48,001 nt of DNA from Candidatus Onthousia faecigallinarum (GTDB lineage: Bacteria; Bacillota_I; Bacilli_A; RF39; UBA660). Below the pieces are notes generated by a model that made no database searches, was not told the DNA's origin, and was given only the letters and a program-made list of their open reading frames with translations. This document shows, in pieces, positions 1,403 to 18,812 of the stretch. Every line of letters starts with the position of its first letter. The stretch's first letter is position 1. A program made the position numbers and the translations under genes. Location of the stretch: positions 1 to 48,001 of the forward strand of contig DVKE01000014.1 in NCBI GenBank assembly GCA_018716225.1, given 5' to 3'.

Positions 1403-1428
1403 CTTGCAAATGACTCCTCATTTGCAAG
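1403..1428. repeat. Perfect 11-bp hairpin just after the surface gene stop
   Basis: CTTGCAAATGA (1403-1413), loop CTCC, TCATTTGCAAG (1418-1428). It starts two bases after the stop codon. It is followed by a run of G rather than T, so it is not a standard intrinsic terminator, though it could still stop or stabilise the transcript. A hairpin directly downstream of a variable-repeat-like gene end is also a known feature of diversity-generating retroelements. Confidence 0.75.
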
Positions 1429-1457
1429 GGGGGTTAAACGAATCGTGACGTGTAGTG
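1421..1457 (+). repeat. Shared 3' flank of the surface-protein loci, copy A
   Basis: TTTGCAAGGGGG, then a short spacer, then ATCGTGACGTGTAGTG. The same arrangement occurs at 18747-18782 (ATCGTGGCGTGTAGTG), downstream of the truncated paralogue. Similarity stops after this block on the 3' side in both places. The two loci therefore share a common ancestral 3' flank. Confidence 0.6.
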
Positions 1458-1503
1458 GTTTGTGTCTTTGTTCTTCTTCCCTTTGGTTTGCGCTTTGTTT
1501 CTT

Positions 1504-1611
1504 TCGCCGGATGATTTCAACAATGATAATGCTAATGTATGGAGTAAGTTTGATAATCTCGATAATGATAATGTGAACAATCAAAACGGCGTCCGTCCAG
1601 ATTCCAACTAA
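1504..1611 (+). other. Asn-codon-rich stretch resembling a DGR template/variable repeat
   Basis: Read in the frame starting at 1504 this gives SPDDF, then a segment with 11 AAC/AAT codons in 35, ending DNDNVNNQNGVRP and a TAA at 1609. The pattern of Asn codons followed by GVRP is what translated template repeats of diversity-generating retroelements look like, because adenines are the mutagenised bases. It also aligns in layout with the WSMTP...LRPVIN end of the surface protein at 1200-1330. There is no start codon or RBS, so it is not a gene itself. No reverse transcriptase or Avd gene is visible here, and base-by-base comparison with the neighbouring gene end gave no clean A-only mismatch pattern. 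It may be a remnant or an orphan template. Confidence 0.4.
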
Positions 1612-1644
1612 GGCTAGGTTTTCTAGTGTCACCGCATTTTGTTG

Positions 1645-2102
1645 GTTACGGCTTACAGATAGAGGAAGTAATATTGGAAACAAGTTTAATTCCCGGAGGA
1701 ATTCAAATAAATAATATAGATGTTCAAGGACTTAAGAAAAAAGTTCTTGGAAAATCCCTATAATGGAAGTAACAAAGTGGAGGTAGGTTTTGCTTTATTT
1801 ACAGCCCAAAGTTATAAAGAGGCACGGGCGATTGTAGGAGATTGGAAGGAAGGAGAGAGATTTGGGACGAATTAGAGAAACTAAGATACAATGATGAATT
1901 TATTGCTGTTTATGATGCTGAGATCGTACAGAAGAAGTTAGAGAATTCTGCTAGGAAAGAAGGCAAAAGTGTTGGCAAAAAGGCCGGTATTAAGCAAGAA
2001 AAACAGTCCATTGCCAGTTCTATGTTGAAAGATAATGTTCCATACAGTACGATTTCAAAGTACACAAGATTAAGTAAACAAGAAATATTAAGTTTACAAT
2101 AA
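1645..2102 (+). pseudogene. Decayed Rpn/PD-(D/E)XK-type nuclease gene (C-terminal remnant)
   Basis: Three overlapping frames together give one plausible protein tail: LETSLIPGGIQINNIDVQG, then after a shift near the A-run at 1736-1741 FLENPYNGSNKVEVGFALF and SYKEARAIVGD, then after a shift near 1855 ELEKLRYNDEFIAVYDAE. The end (QEKQSIASSMLKDNVPYSTISKYTRLSKQEI) is the coiled-coil and helix tail typical of Rpn/COG5464 recombination-promoting nucleases. The catalytic domain is missing. I infer a dead gene; the family assignment rests mainly on the tail. Confidence 0.5.
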
Positions 2103-4488: not shown

Positions 4489-6583
4489 GTGGCCTTATAT
4501 CATCCTATTTCTTACTAGTTGTCTTTTTGTAATTTTTTATTACAAGACCAATCTTTATTCAAAGTATCAAGGAACAGAAAAAGAAGTGACTGGAATTATT
4601 CAAGAAATTTCTTTTGATGGATCTTATCTTGCTATGACAATAAAAGGAAAAGAAAAAATAATGACTTCTTATTATGCCAAAACAGAAGAAGAGTTAATGT
4701 TACTAAAAAAAGAACTTTCTTTAGGAGATACCATACTTCTAAAAGGTGCATTTATTACCCCCAATACTACCAAAAATTTTAATTCGTTTTCCTACCAAAA
4801 ATATTTAAAACAGAAGAAGATCTTTTATTGTATGCAAGTGGAGTCCATTACAAGAATTAAAAAGAATCAAAATATTCTATTAAAAATTCGAATGAGAATT
4901 AAAATGCATATTGATTCCTTTGATGAAGCAGCTTCTTATATTAATACTTTTGTGTTAGGCAATACAGATCAAGTAGAACAGGAGGTTTATGAAAATTTTC
5001 AAAAAATAGGTATTTCTCATCTTTTTGCCTTATCGGGTACACAAATTACATTTCTTGCAGACCTAATACAAAAGATATTAAAAAAAACCAAAAGAACAGA
5101 GATTCAAAGATTTTTAATTACTTTCTTGATTTTAATCTTATATTATCAAGTGATCGATCCTTGTGCAGCGATCGATCGGGCACTAGTCTTTTACTTTTTC
5201 TTTTCTTTGAATAAGATCTTTTATTTTCATATTTCTCCTTTCTATTTAATTCTGTTATCTTTAGCGGTTTTATTTTTCTGGCATCCCAATTATATTTTTG
5301 ATATTGGTTTTCAGTATGCTACAGTGATATCAATTGGACTTATTTTATATAGTCAGGTTAAGAAAAAGGAACACCGTAAAATAACAGAACTTTTTTTTGT
5401 CTCTGGGATTAGCTTTTTTTGTAGTATTCCCATTTCTCTTTATCACTTTCATGCCATCAATCCGATGTCAATTATATATAATTTATTTTATGTACCGTAT
5501 ATTAATTTTCTTGTTTTTCCACTTGCTATGTTAACACTAGTCTTTCCTTTTTTAAGCCCTGTTTTAAATATTCTTACTTCTTTTTTAGAAAAGAGCGTTT
5601 CTTTGGTAGCTAATTTTTCGTTTGGAACCTTTCTTTTTCCAAGGATTCCTCTTATTTTTTATTTCCTTTATGGTATTTTCTTTTTTCTTCTTTTAGGATT
5701 GAAAAAGAAAAAAATCTGGATTTTCCTTTTTTCTCTTTTGCTTTTCTTTCATTATGTGATTCCGCGTTTTACTTTAGGGGATCGTATGTATATGTTAGAT
5801 GTAGGACAAGGAGATTCCTTTTTGGTTGTTTCGGAAGGGAAAAGTATGTTAATTGATACGGGAGGAGTATTAACCTATGAAAAAGAAGACTGGGAAAAGG
5901 GAAAAGAAAAAACAGGAGGAGGAAAATATATTATTTCTTTTCTTTCTTCGCTTGGAATTTCGAAGCTTGATTTTCTTGTTTTAACCCATGGAGATGCCGA
6001 TCATGTCAAAGAGGCATTGACTTTATTAAAAGAAATTCCTATTAAAAAAATCTATTATAATGAAGGAGAAATTTCTTCTTTAGAAAAAGAAATTATAACT
6101 TTAGGGAAAGAAAAAAAGACGAAAACCGAAGTACTACATCAAGATGAGATACTTTCCTTAGGTCAGTTTACTTTTCAAGCTCTTAGCAGAGATTTAAAAG
6201 AAGAAAACGCTAGTAGTTTAATTCTTTTGGGACAAATTGATAACTATAATCTTCTTTTTATGGGAGATGCGAGTAAAAAGAGTGAACAAGAAATGTTACA
6301 AGAATATGATCTTCCCGAAATTGATATTTTAAAGATAGGTCATCATGGTTCAAGAACAAGTAGTAGTAAAGAATTTGTGAAAAAAATCAAGCCTAAAGTA
6401 GGACTTATTTCGGCTGGGAAACAGAACCGTTTTCATCATCCTCATCCAGAGGTAGTAGAAGAATATGAAAAGCAAGGGACTCTTCTTTTTTCAACGATAG
6501 AAGATGGAATGGTAGAAATCGATTTTTCTCATCAAAAGATAAGAACCTATCAAGGAAAGGAATTGTCTTTTGCTAAAAAATAG
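4457..6583 (+). CDS. comEC: ComEC, DNA uptake channel with metallo-beta-lactamase domain
   Basis: Inner-membrane channel that brings single-stranded DNA into the cell. 708 residues: N-terminal anchors and an OB-like domain (about 40-135), the multi-helix Competence domain (GISHLFALSGTQ near 190, then repeated helices to about 440), and a C-terminal metallo-beta-lactamase domain with LDVGQGDSFLV, THGDADHV (about 511) and GHHGSRTSSS (about 627), so the nuclease-like site looks intact. I accept the TTG at 4457 because AGGGGAAG stands before it; an alternative is a start inside LKWPYII a few codons later. Confidence 0.93.
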   Translation: MLRLRKILLLKWPYIILFLTSCLFVIFYYKTNLYSKYQGTEKEVTGIIQEISFDGSYLAMTIKGKEKIMTSYYAKTEEELMLLKKELSLGDTILLKGAFITPNTTKNFNSFSYQKYLKQKKIFYCMQVESITRIKKNQNILLKIRMRIKMHIDSFDEAASYINTFVLGNTDQVEQEVYENFQKIGISHLFALSGTQITFLADLIQKILKKTKRTEIQRFLITFLILILYYQVIDPCAAIDRALVFYFFFSLNKIFYFHISPFYLILLSLAVLFFWHPNYIFDIGFQYATVISIGLILYSQVKKKEHRKITELFFVSGISFFCSIPISLYHFHAINPMSIIYNLFYVPYINFLVFPLAMLTLVFPFLSPVLNILTSFLEKSVSLVANFSFGTFLFPRIPLIFYFLYGIFFFLLLGLKKKKIWIFLFSLLLFFHYVIPRFTLGDRMYMLDVGQGDSFLVVSEGKSMLIDTGGVLTYEKEDWEKGKEKTGGGKYIISFLSSLGISKLDFLVLTHGDADHVKEALTLLKEIPIKKIYYNEGEISSLEKEIITLGKEKKTKTEVLHQDEILSLGQFTFQALSRDLKEENASSLILLGQIDNYNLLFMGDASKKSEQEMLQEYDLPEIDILKIGHHGSRTSSSKEFVKKIKPKVGLISAGKQNRFHHPHPEVVEEYEKQGTLLFSTIEDGMVEIDFSHQKIRTYQGKELSFAKK

Positions 6584-6615
6584 CTTAAAATAAAAAAGAA
6601 AAGGAAGTGTTTCAA

Positions 6616-7521
6616 TTGCAAAAAATTACGAATTTAGTAAAGAAAGAAAATCAATTAAAACTAAAACAAGCTTATATGGAAGCTTATCAAGATCCTTTAT
6701 TTAAAGCCTATGTAGAAACACTTCCTCTTTCGGATGAAGTGTTAGCAGAATATACTTCGTCGATTGAAGATGCAGTTAAGGAGTTGAAAAATTGTAAACA
6801 GTGTCCAGGTTTAAAAGAGTGTCCTAATGACGTAAAAGGACATGTTTTAAGTGCTATGAAAAAAGAAGAGGGCTTAATTTTTTCTTATCTTCCTTGTTCG
6901 AAATTAAGGCGAAAAGAAAAGTCATTAGCTTATCAAAAAAATATTACTTGTTATGATTTACCGAAAGAGATTCGGGAAGCTTCTTTTCAAAAAATGGATA
7001 AAAGTGATAAAAAAAGATTTCCTATTATGGAGTATTTTACGGAATTTATAAAAGCCTATAAAAAAGGGGAAAGTCCGAAAGGAATTTATTTGCATGGATC
7101 TTTTGGGAGTGGGAAAACCTATATGATTGCAGCTTTATTCAATGAACTAGCGAAAAAAGATATTTCAAGTGTTTTAGTATATTATCCTGAGTTGCTTCGT
7201 TCTTTAAAATCTTCTTTTGGTTCAGATTATGAAGAAAAATATGAATATATAAAAAAAGCTCCTTTGCTTCTTTTGGATGATATTGGAGCGGAAAATACGA
7301 CTGCTTGGAGTCGTGATGAAGTCTTAGGACCATTATTACAATATCGGATGGAAGAACATTTACCAACTTTTTTCACTTCTAATTTTACGTTAGCAGAATT
7401 AGAAAAAAACTTAAGTATTACTGCAAATGGAAGTGAACAAGTAAAAGCGAAAAGAATTATTGAGAGAATCAAACAATTAACGGTTGATCTTTCTTTAAAT
7501 AGCAAAAACAGAAGAGAATGA
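6616..7521 (+). CDS. dnaI: DnaI, primosomal helicase loader
   Basis: AAA+ ATPase that loads the replicative helicase DnaC/DnaB in Bacilli. The N-terminal half carries the Cys-rich zinc-binding region (CKQCPGLKECP and LPCSK), the C-terminal half a Walker A GSFGSGKT (about residue 160), a Walker B LLLLDDIGAE (about 216) and an arginine-rich end (RIIERI). I prefer the TTG at 6616 over the GTG at 6607: AAGGAA ends one base before the GTG, but ten bases before the TTG. It usually follows dnaB; here it follows comEC with only a 32-base gap and no terminator. Confidence 0.9.
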   Translation: MQKITNLVKKENQLKLKQAYMEAYQDPLFKAYVETLPLSDEVLAEYTSSIEDAVKELKNCKQCPGLKECPNDVKGHVLSAMKKEEGLIFSYLPCSKLRRKEKSLAYQKNITCYDLPKEIREASFQKMDKSDKKRFPIMEYFTEFIKAYKKGESPKGIYLHGSFGSGKTYMIAALFNELAKKDISSVLVYYPELLRSLKSSFGSDYEEKYEYIKKAPLLLLDDIGAENTTAWSRDEVLGPLLQYRMEEHLPTFFTSNFTLAELEKNLSITANGSEQVKAKRIIERIKQLTVDLSLNSKNRRE

Positions 7522-7857
7522 TTATTTCTTTTCTGTTACTTGGAGAATTTCTCCTTCTTGTAGGGTAGAACAAGAATAGGCCGGAAATTCAAAAATATAA
7601 TAGGCTTTCCTTTTGGGAAAGAAAATTTTTTCTGTTTTTACATTACGATAAATTTTTAAAATTTTATAATCTTTATCGGTAAATACAATATCAACTCTCT
7701 GACAAAGAAAGCAAGTATTAATGCTTTTCTTTTTGGGGTAACATAATCCTTCGTTAATCGCTTGAAGATGAAAACGATAGCCCTTGATTCGATCTTTAAA
7801 AGTGGTTAGTACTTTGGTTTTCATTTTCTTTTTTCCTAGTTTAACAAAAACATACAT
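7522..7857 (-). CDS. DUF192-family small protein
   Basis: About 111 residues resembling the DUF192/COG1430 family of small beta-barrel proteins of unknown role: early KTKVLTTFKDRIKGYRF (the usual 'RxxGLM' region), then CQRVDIVFTDKDYKILKIYRNV matching the IDVVFLDKDGKVV block, and YIFEFPAYSC matching the final YVLEL block. There is no signal peptide, whereas many family members are exported. The ATG at 7857 has AGGTG at good spacing; the upstream GTG at 7866 overlaps that RBS. It converges on dnaI with no gap, so the two 3' ends abut. Confidence 0.7.
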   Translation of the reverse strand: MYVFVKLGKKKMKTKVLTTFKDRIKGYRFHLQAINEGLCYPKKKSINTCFLCQRVDIVFTDKDYKILKIYRNVKTEKIFFPKRKAYYIFEFPAYSCSTLQEGEILQVTEKK

Positions 7858-7964
7858 GTTGGTCACCTGTTAATAATCATAACATAAAATAAGAAGAAAG
7901 AAAAGAAAGCCTAGAATAAAATGAGAATCTATGATATTATATCAAAGAGAAAGGAGTAGATACT

Positions 7965-8687
7965 ATGAGTGGACATTCAAAATGGGCAACCATTCATCGT
8001 AAAAAAGGAGAGTTAGATGCAGCGAGAGGTAAAGTCTTTCAAAAGTTAGCGAAAGAGCTTTATGTGGCGGCAAAATCAGGTACTCCTGATGTTGATAGCA
8101 ATCCAAGTTTAAGAATGGTTGTAGAAAAGGCAAAAGCGGCGAATATGCCAAAAGATAATATTCAAAAAGCGATTGATAAAGCCAAGGGCGCCAGCGAAGG
8201 AGAAAATTATGAAAGCATTCGCTATGAAGGATATGGCCCTTCTGGAATTGCTATTATGGTAGATTGTTTAACAGACAATCGAAATCGGACGGCTTCCCAA
8301 GTTCGTTCAACTTTTACGAAAAGGGGAGGAAACCTTGGAACGGATGGATCGGTTAGTTATTTATTTGAAAGAAAAGGAATTTTAGTGATTCCAAGTGATT
8401 ACGATGAAGATGAAGTAATGATGTGTGCTTTAGATGCTGGAGCAAGTGATATGGAAACGGTAGATGGTACTTATGTTATTACTACTCCAGCGGATAAATT
8501 TATTGCTGTGAAAGATGCCCTTTCTTCTTTAGGGGTACAAGAGTTTTTAACTAGTGAAGTTACTTTTGTAGCCAAGAATGAAGTGGAAGTGGATGAAGAA
8601 ACGAAAGAAAAAGTTTTAAGTCTAGTGGAACAATTAGAAGATCTTGATGATGTACAAAATGTATACTATAACTTAAAGGAAGATTAA
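7965..8687 (+). CDS. yebC: YebC/PmpR-family protein
   Basis: 240 residues starting MSGHSKWATIHRKKG, diagnostic of the YebC/TACO1 family. The usual KAKAANMPKDNIQKAI and YEGYGPSGIAIMVDCLTDN blocks follow, then VSYLFERKG. Members have been described both as transcription regulators and as ribosome-associated factors helping translation of proline-rich stretches. The ATG has AAAGGAG upstream. Next to ruvAB as in many bacteria. Confidence 0.95.
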   Translation: MSGHSKWATIHRKKGELDAARGKVFQKLAKELYVAAKSGTPDVDSNPSLRMVVEKAKAANMPKDNIQKAIDKAKGASEGENYESIRYEGYGPSGIAIMVDCLTDNRNRTASQVRSTFTKRGGNLGTDGSVSYLFERKGILVIPSDYDEDEVMMCALDAGASDMETVDGTYVITTPADKFIAVKDALSSLGVQEFLTSEVTFVAKNEVEVDEETKEKVLSLVEQLEDLDDVQNVYYNLKED

Positions 8688-18056: not shown

Positions 18057-18768
18057 GTGAGGTTTGCTTTTTTTGTTATTTTAAGTTGGTTAGGGTGCGG
18101 ACAAAGTCTGCCGTATGATATAAATACCTTTCAAGAGTTAAATGATCCAAACTATATAACAGAAGGATTGTATTCTAATATTGATGAAGATGGAACTACT
18201 TATTATTATCGTGGAAATATAAAGAATAATAACTTACAATTCGGAACATATGAGGAAGATTATTATATTTATCACGGAAATAATGAAAGTTATTATCAAA
18301 GCCAGGAAAGTTGTGAAGAGGCAAAGAATAACACTTGTACTCCCGTAAAGTTAGCGTCAACTGGGGATAAGATGTACTGGAAGATTGTAAGAGTGAATGG
18401 AGATGGTAGTTTAAGATTAATTTATAATGGAATAAGTGCTACTCCTGATAGTAGTGATTTGGCTCATTCTTATTCCATAGGAGTGACTCCTTACAACTTA
18501 TCGTGGAATGATCCAAAATATACAGGATATACTTATGATAATGGAACAGATAGTTTTATGAAAAGAGAAGTCGATACATGGTATCAAAATACCTTAGGAA
18601 AGAGCAATTATGATAGAATGGTAACAAGTGGTAGATTCTGTAGTGATAGTAGTGGTTATTAAGAAGGAAGTTTTTACAATTTTTCAACGGATATATTTCC
18701 AGACGGAAGTTATTTATATGCCAGTATGGGAGAACGCTTAGCTAACTTTGCAAGGGGGATGAAATGAT
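18057..18768 (+). pseudogene. Truncated paralogue of the surface protein at the left end
   Basis: From about 18,140 the frame matches the surface protein at 1-1400 closely: ITEGLYSNIDEDGTTYYYRG, then KMYWKIVRVNGDGSLRLIYNG, SYDLAHS-like SSDLAHSYSIG, TYDNGTDSF and RFCSDSSGY. A TAA at 18660 then stops it; in the same frame EGSFYNFSTDIFPDG and MGERLANFARGMK continue to 18768, so the stop is recent. The C-lectin-like half is absent and the sequence joins the shared 3' flank directly. The 5' end is also lost: the open GTG at 18057 has no RBS and the first 25 residues do not match. It may be a dead gene or a silent sequence reservoir. Confidence 0.75.
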
Positions 18769-18782
18769 CGTGGCGTGTAGTG
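18747..18782 (+). repeat. Shared 3' flank of the surface-protein loci, copy B
   Basis: TTTGCAAGGGGG...ATCGTGGCGTGTAGTG, matching copy A at 1421-1457 with few changes. Here it directly follows the truncated reading frame. Confidence 0.6.
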
Positions 18783-18812
18783 TTTTGCCTTAATTTAAGA
18801 TATAAGTTTAAG

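Follow-up and report, generated by a model that had tools for sequence, protein, structure and literature searches.

Known systems

The closest described system is the diversity-generating retroelement (DGR) of Bordetella phage BPP-1 (mtd, avd, template repeat, brt). In phage DGRs the hairpin that follows the variable repeat (VR) lies 4-34 bp from it and carries a GRNA loop (PMC3240598). Multi-target DGRs have several VRs per genome and one or more template repeats (TRs) (PMC6642488), remote targets have been named, and DGRs are enriched in Firmicutes (PMC8144416). The accessory proteins Avd and MSL are already known, MSL corresponding to PF01624, MutS domain I (PMC10053308). Our search for papers on DGRs in the present lineage found none, which is weak evidence since it covered a minority of journals; it likewise returned nothing on DGRs in Mollicutes, with a MutS-like protein or with orphan template repeats, and one unrelated review for Tenericutes.

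The system described here, from the genus Candidatus Onthousia (Bacilli), shares with that of BPP-1 adenine-specific differences between TR and VR, an RT with IGxxxSQ and YMDD motifs, an Avd-like protein, a hairpin with a 4-nt loop after the VR-bearing gene, and a target domain that is probably C-type-lectin-like. It differs in being chromosomal in gut Bacilli, in its extra MutS_I-like ORF and in having no relative in IMG/VR, on which ground a phage origin was rejected. The unit in the window departs further from BPP-1 in that it has no RT.

A conserved Asn-rich stretch downstream of a surface gene

The window, the whole stretch of DNA analysed (48,001 nucleotides), is the entire contig C62 of a draft genome of 1.149 Mb in 67 contigs that is 92% complete. 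Its densest open Asn stretch, in a composition scan of the whole window, is the forward-strand frame at 1504-1611, SPDDFNNDNANVWSKFDNLDNDNVNNQNGVRPDSN*, in which 11 of 35 codons are AAC or AAT. The earlier note had counted these codons correctly and likened the stretch to a DGR template, placing it about 100 bases past a C-lectin-like gene, with no RT or Avd in the window and with a neighbouring gene end that does not differ from it by adenine changes only. Each of these observations held, as set out below.

Asn density by itself is suggestive at most, because the count of 11 was also reached in 1 of 40 replicas of the window generated by a first-order Markov model. In so A+T-rich a genome such a frame might arise by chance, or might be a coding repeat with no relation to DGRs; we find either hardly credible, as both are refuted by conservation and by A-biased mismatches. 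Among the 35 genomes of this genus that made up our comparison set, 17 (the window's own, G000, included) have the region 1420-1760 at E 1e-5 or better, and it occupies the same position between target gene and RT. This homology, together with adenine-biased columns in three gene ends of the same genome (see below), places the stretch beyond chance and supports the view that 1505-1600 is, by descent, a DGR template repeat.

The TR proper (1505-1600, forward strand) has adenine at 33 of its 96 columns. It is preceded by a leader at 1429-1504 (+) that extends from a hairpin to the TR and whose 5' part is duplicated at 18747-18787, and it is followed by the conserved 3' part of the putative template RNA at 1601-1763 (+), ending in a conserved stem. 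Across the aligned copies, 97.3% of the cells of this terminal stem are paired, and compensatory changes occur in 5 cells against 1.5 expected (0/500 shuffles); the count of pairs altered on both sides was not significant (171/500 shuffles). Two pairs of the stem are broken in the window copy. A near-identical solitary copy of the TR is present at C14:1-262, matching at 83 of 86 core positions.

The site that in congeners holds an MSL-like ORF, Avd and RT is occupied in the window by a remnant at 1720-2102 (+) resembling Rpn and a PHROG transposase (phrog_3300, 7e-8, for 1842-2102). Profile and sequence searches gave no match to a DGR RT or Avd anywhere on the window contig.

Upstream of the TR lies a surface gene of the target family (3-1400, +), its 5' end cut by the start of the contig; members of the family have a C-terminal domain that is probably C-type-lectin-like. 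The gene's stop at 1400 is about 104 bases upstream of the TR. The segment 1203-1328 (+), at the site of the VR in cassette genes (WSMTP...LRPVIN), differs from the TR by 23 A and 39 non-A mismatches; it is therefore not a VR of the window TR, and the gene was rejected as a target of that template.

Immediately 3' of the gene stop is a hairpin, CTTGCAAATGA-CTCC-TCATTTGCAAG, at 1403-1428 (+), with an 11-bp stem and a 4-nt loop. Stems of 8-12 bp with a 4-nt loop stand at the same site in 16 of the 17 units with both gene and TR sequence. In contrast to the phage hairpins described above, those of the Onthousia units lie about 80 bp downstream of the VR and have the loop CTCC or CTTC.

The window holds a second dead unit of the target family at 18057-18790 (+), consisting of an internal gene fragment with a stop at 18660 followed by the duplicated TR leader (18747-18787); neither VR nor TR is present there.

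Variable gene ends in the same genome

Sequence matches to the stretch in its own genome comprised the near copy on C14 and two diverged gene ends, on C31 and C6. A search of that genome with the conserved 3' flank of the VR retrieved five gene ends, on C6, C7, C19, C31 and the window itself. Three of them, the unlinked ends on C6, C19 and C31, align to the TR without gaps, and the columns that vary among them fall on 28 of the 33 TR adenines and on 6 of the remaining 63 columns (Fisher test, p=1.5e-13). At the level of sequence, this pattern is the signature of adenine-directed mutagenesis, and together with the cassettes of congeners it bears out the likeness to a DGR template.

The same columns bear on whether the stretch could be a dead surface-gene end, that is, a decayed old VR rather than a template. 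It does read openly as PDDFNNDNANVW...GVRP and adjoins genes of the target family. VRs, however, have altered adenines, whereas the stretch retains adenine at 28 of the 34 VR-variable columns, and its ending, exactly like that of congener TRs, is the TR-specific CCAGATTCCNACTAAGGCTAG, where the gene has CCAGTTATCAATGTGAC. We therefore regard a dead gene end as very improbable.

The present VRs were written from a different copy. At seven columns C6, C19 and C31 agree with one another and the window TR differs, so that another (sister) template wrote them; the inferred donor, with A allowed at each variable column, has AACAACAACAAT where the window TR has GATAATGATAAT. Every DGR-type VR found differs from the window TR by 7-15 non-A mismatches. 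The genome-wide check proposed in the earlier note, for gene ends with mismatches only at the adenines of the stretch, thus succeeded in part: the mismatches on C6, C19 and C31 are A-biased, but none of these ends is adenine-only, and the available assembly contains no clean TR/VR pair. The C7 end is more divergent from both known TRs and may have had a further donor.

These data also bear on a functional role for the solitary TR, which would be transcribed and serve in trans as an extra template for the RT of other copies. The solitary TR has retained its ends and most of the structure of its 3' RNA, the C14 copy is near-identical, and DGRs with multiple TRs have been reported (PMC6642488). 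Against this, A-only changes to the window TR explain none of the five gene ends, the seven columns shared by three VRs set it apart, two pairs of the terminal stem are broken, and the adjacent gene has no VR. Use in trans is accordingly unlikely in our judgement; a stranded template is the reading that we develop below.

Complete cassettes in congeners

Many congeners carry a full cassette in the order target gene, hairpin, TR, MutS_I-like ORF, Avd, DGR-type RT. In a typical unit the surface gene encodes a signal peptide and ends in WSMTP..VR..RPVINVTT, followed by the hairpin and leader; the TR ends in CCAGATTCCNACTAAGG, and after it come a conserved RNA segment of about 160 bases, a 111-aa ORF, the Avd-like protein and the RT. 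A congener RT matched RVT_1 (5.5e-20) and phrog_1423 (2.7e-75), and IGNVTSQ and YMDD are invariant in 7 congener RTs, the former being of the DGR type IGxxxSQ instead of QGxxxSP. Its best PDB match was the 8ub7 series (328 aa), which reads IGSLTSQ/YMDD and which we take to be BPP-1 Brt. The congener Avd matched phrog_3206, 'Avd protein of DGR' (2.6e-8), and NCBIfam Avd at 1.3e-5, below the cut-off of that model. As with the known accessory MSL, the 111-aa ORF between TR and Avd matches MutS_I; this was its only Pfam match (PF01624, E 0.12), and its MSL identity is just a lead because the score of 13.1 bits lies below the cut-off of 20.6.

TR and VR sequences in congeners differ almost exclusively at adenines. 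In G007, a TR and a VR on another contig mismatch at 24 of 33 adenines and at 0 of 62 other columns; the corresponding figures are 23/35 and 0/60 in G020, 22/35 and 0/60 in G030, and 20/35 and 0/60 in G001. A TR with at least one VR at 0 or 1 non-A mismatch was present in 11 congeners (G001, G007, G008, G012, G014, G020, G024, G027, G029, G030 and G034), and the best pairs in G010, G011 and G017 had 4-5 non-A mismatches; some TRs in the genus are decayed. Judged by these features, the congener system is a DGR. Relatives of its RT are spread across many uncultured gut Bacilli.

Similar to multi-target bacterial DGRs, for which multiple TRs per genome are precedented (PMC6642488), the Onthousia system has remote VRs on other contigs that differ by adenines only or nearly so (G007, G020, G029 and G030), and the VR-end pattern has up to nine matches per genome (G007). 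Unlike in those systems, TR copies with no adjoining RT recur, at C14 and C62 of the window's genome and at G018:C1, G029:C18 and G024:C4; solitary or decayed TRs are also seen in G018, G029 and G024.

RT and Avd in the same genome

The earlier note had asked for a genome-wide search for a DGR-type RT, and this turned up two RT 3' ends, both at contig ends. The last 48 residues of a congener DGR RT match C23:38367-38510 (-) and C21:1-144 (+) at 79% identity, and a second RT query matched both again. Each is a 51-aa open frame whose gene body is unassembled in the 92%-complete draft. The two ends are identical over their first 131 nt and have different flanking genes thereafter, as is usual where an assembly stops at two near-identical repeats. 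The earlier note would have abandoned the template for a genome with neither an RT nor an A-biased gene end; this genome has RT 3' ends as well as A-biased gene ends.

The sole two full RVT_1 hits in this genome, on C27 and C11, were rejected as DGR RTs: both score above the cut-off of the NCBIfam model of group II intron RT/maturase (TIGR04416, 427 and 321 bits) and so belong to group II introns. Matches to Avd among the contigs were at chance level only. Because the RT bodies and Avd are not assembled, we infer, rather than observe, a working DGR with intact RTs in this genome.

Contig breaks in the draft coincide with target genes, TRs and RTs of DGRs, namely at the starts of C14, C19, C21, C31 and C62 and at the end of C23. 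Such drafts break at DGR genes because of the repeated nature of cassettes, TRs and VR genes, and surveys that demand RT, TR and VR on one contig will therefore miss DGR RTs, those of the present genome included.

Fold of the VR-bearing domain

The whole target protein was poorly folded by AF2 (pLDDT 42.7), and its C-terminal VR-bearing domain alone reached a pLDDT of 89.5 (41 sequences). Foldseek against the PDB gave no significant match to this domain (none below E 0.3), and a sequence profile (A5) search against the PDB gave none. VIA-align paired the model with an IgA peptidase domain of T. ramosa (9qa6, Z 12.9), a fimbrial protein of Bacteroides (4eps, Z 6.3), the C-terminal domain of Legionella Lcl (Z 5.4) and the G1 domain of aggrecan (Z 2.6), the last two of which are presumably C-type-lectin-like. 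The model thus points, with moderate support, to a C-type-lectin-like fold for the VR-bearing domain.

A probable stranded template

We consider it very probable that the window holds a stranded, likely relic TR of an Onthousia-type chromosomal DGR, and that other DGR copies in the genome wrote the present VRs. It is stranded in that its unit has no msl, avd or rt and the neighbouring gene end is non-templated; the TR itself is probably vestigial.

By analogy with the DGR family, the mechanism would be mutagenic homing. In an intact unit, the DGR RT and Avd would copy the TR RNA with its structured 3' part, adenines would be misread in the copying, and the cDNA would replace the VR at the 3' end of target genes, thereby changing the variable residues of surface proteins that bear a signal peptide and, at the C terminus, a C-type-lectin-like domain. 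A complete cassette would once have stood at the window site and lost its enzymes, other cassettes in the genome having persisted; these other copies, of which the RT 3' ends at C21 and C23 would be part, would then have written the VRs of C6, C19, C31 and probably C7.

The genus harbours a DGR family that is chromosomal and multi-target, in gut Bacilli with small genomes, and because its intact and decaying states coexist, DGR loss can be traced step by step. A broader proposal, which we rate as rather improbable, is that the solitary TRs of the genus are satellite templates, with a single RT and Avd set acting in trans on dispersed templates. If so, each template would write a distinct sequence vocabulary into a shared surface-gene pool.

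Interrupted and altered copies in congeners

In four congeners the DGR RT is interrupted within its YMDD codons by a group II intron (Rfam RF02005, RF00029) that starts GTGCGAC and ends CTACTCGAT; the flanking exons, when joined, restore YMDDG. Both ends of the intron were seen in two of the four and the 3' end only in the other two. The copies lie at about 3842-5752 of L058 (G008:C20), at about 6315-8230 of the reverse complement of L061 (G011:C17, minus strand), at L072:103-176 (G030:C11) and at L073:3-76 (G018:C120).

A TR at about 3840-3945 of L063 (G018:C30) keeps its ends and 3' flank around an unrelated centre of about 60 bases that is pyrimidine-rich and has few adenines. On the minus strand of L059 (G012:C41), at about 4011 of the reverse complement, a DGR RT reads YMDG for YMDD and then breaks frame. 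This broken RT adjoins a TR/VR pair with mismatches at 26 of 35 adenines and 1 of 63 other columns, and the RT was perhaps recently lost. A further family of RTs in congeners (e.g., G004:C51, G015:C36 and G002:C1) shares about 45-48% identity with the DGR RT and often has internal stops; it is possibly another, partly dead DGR lineage.
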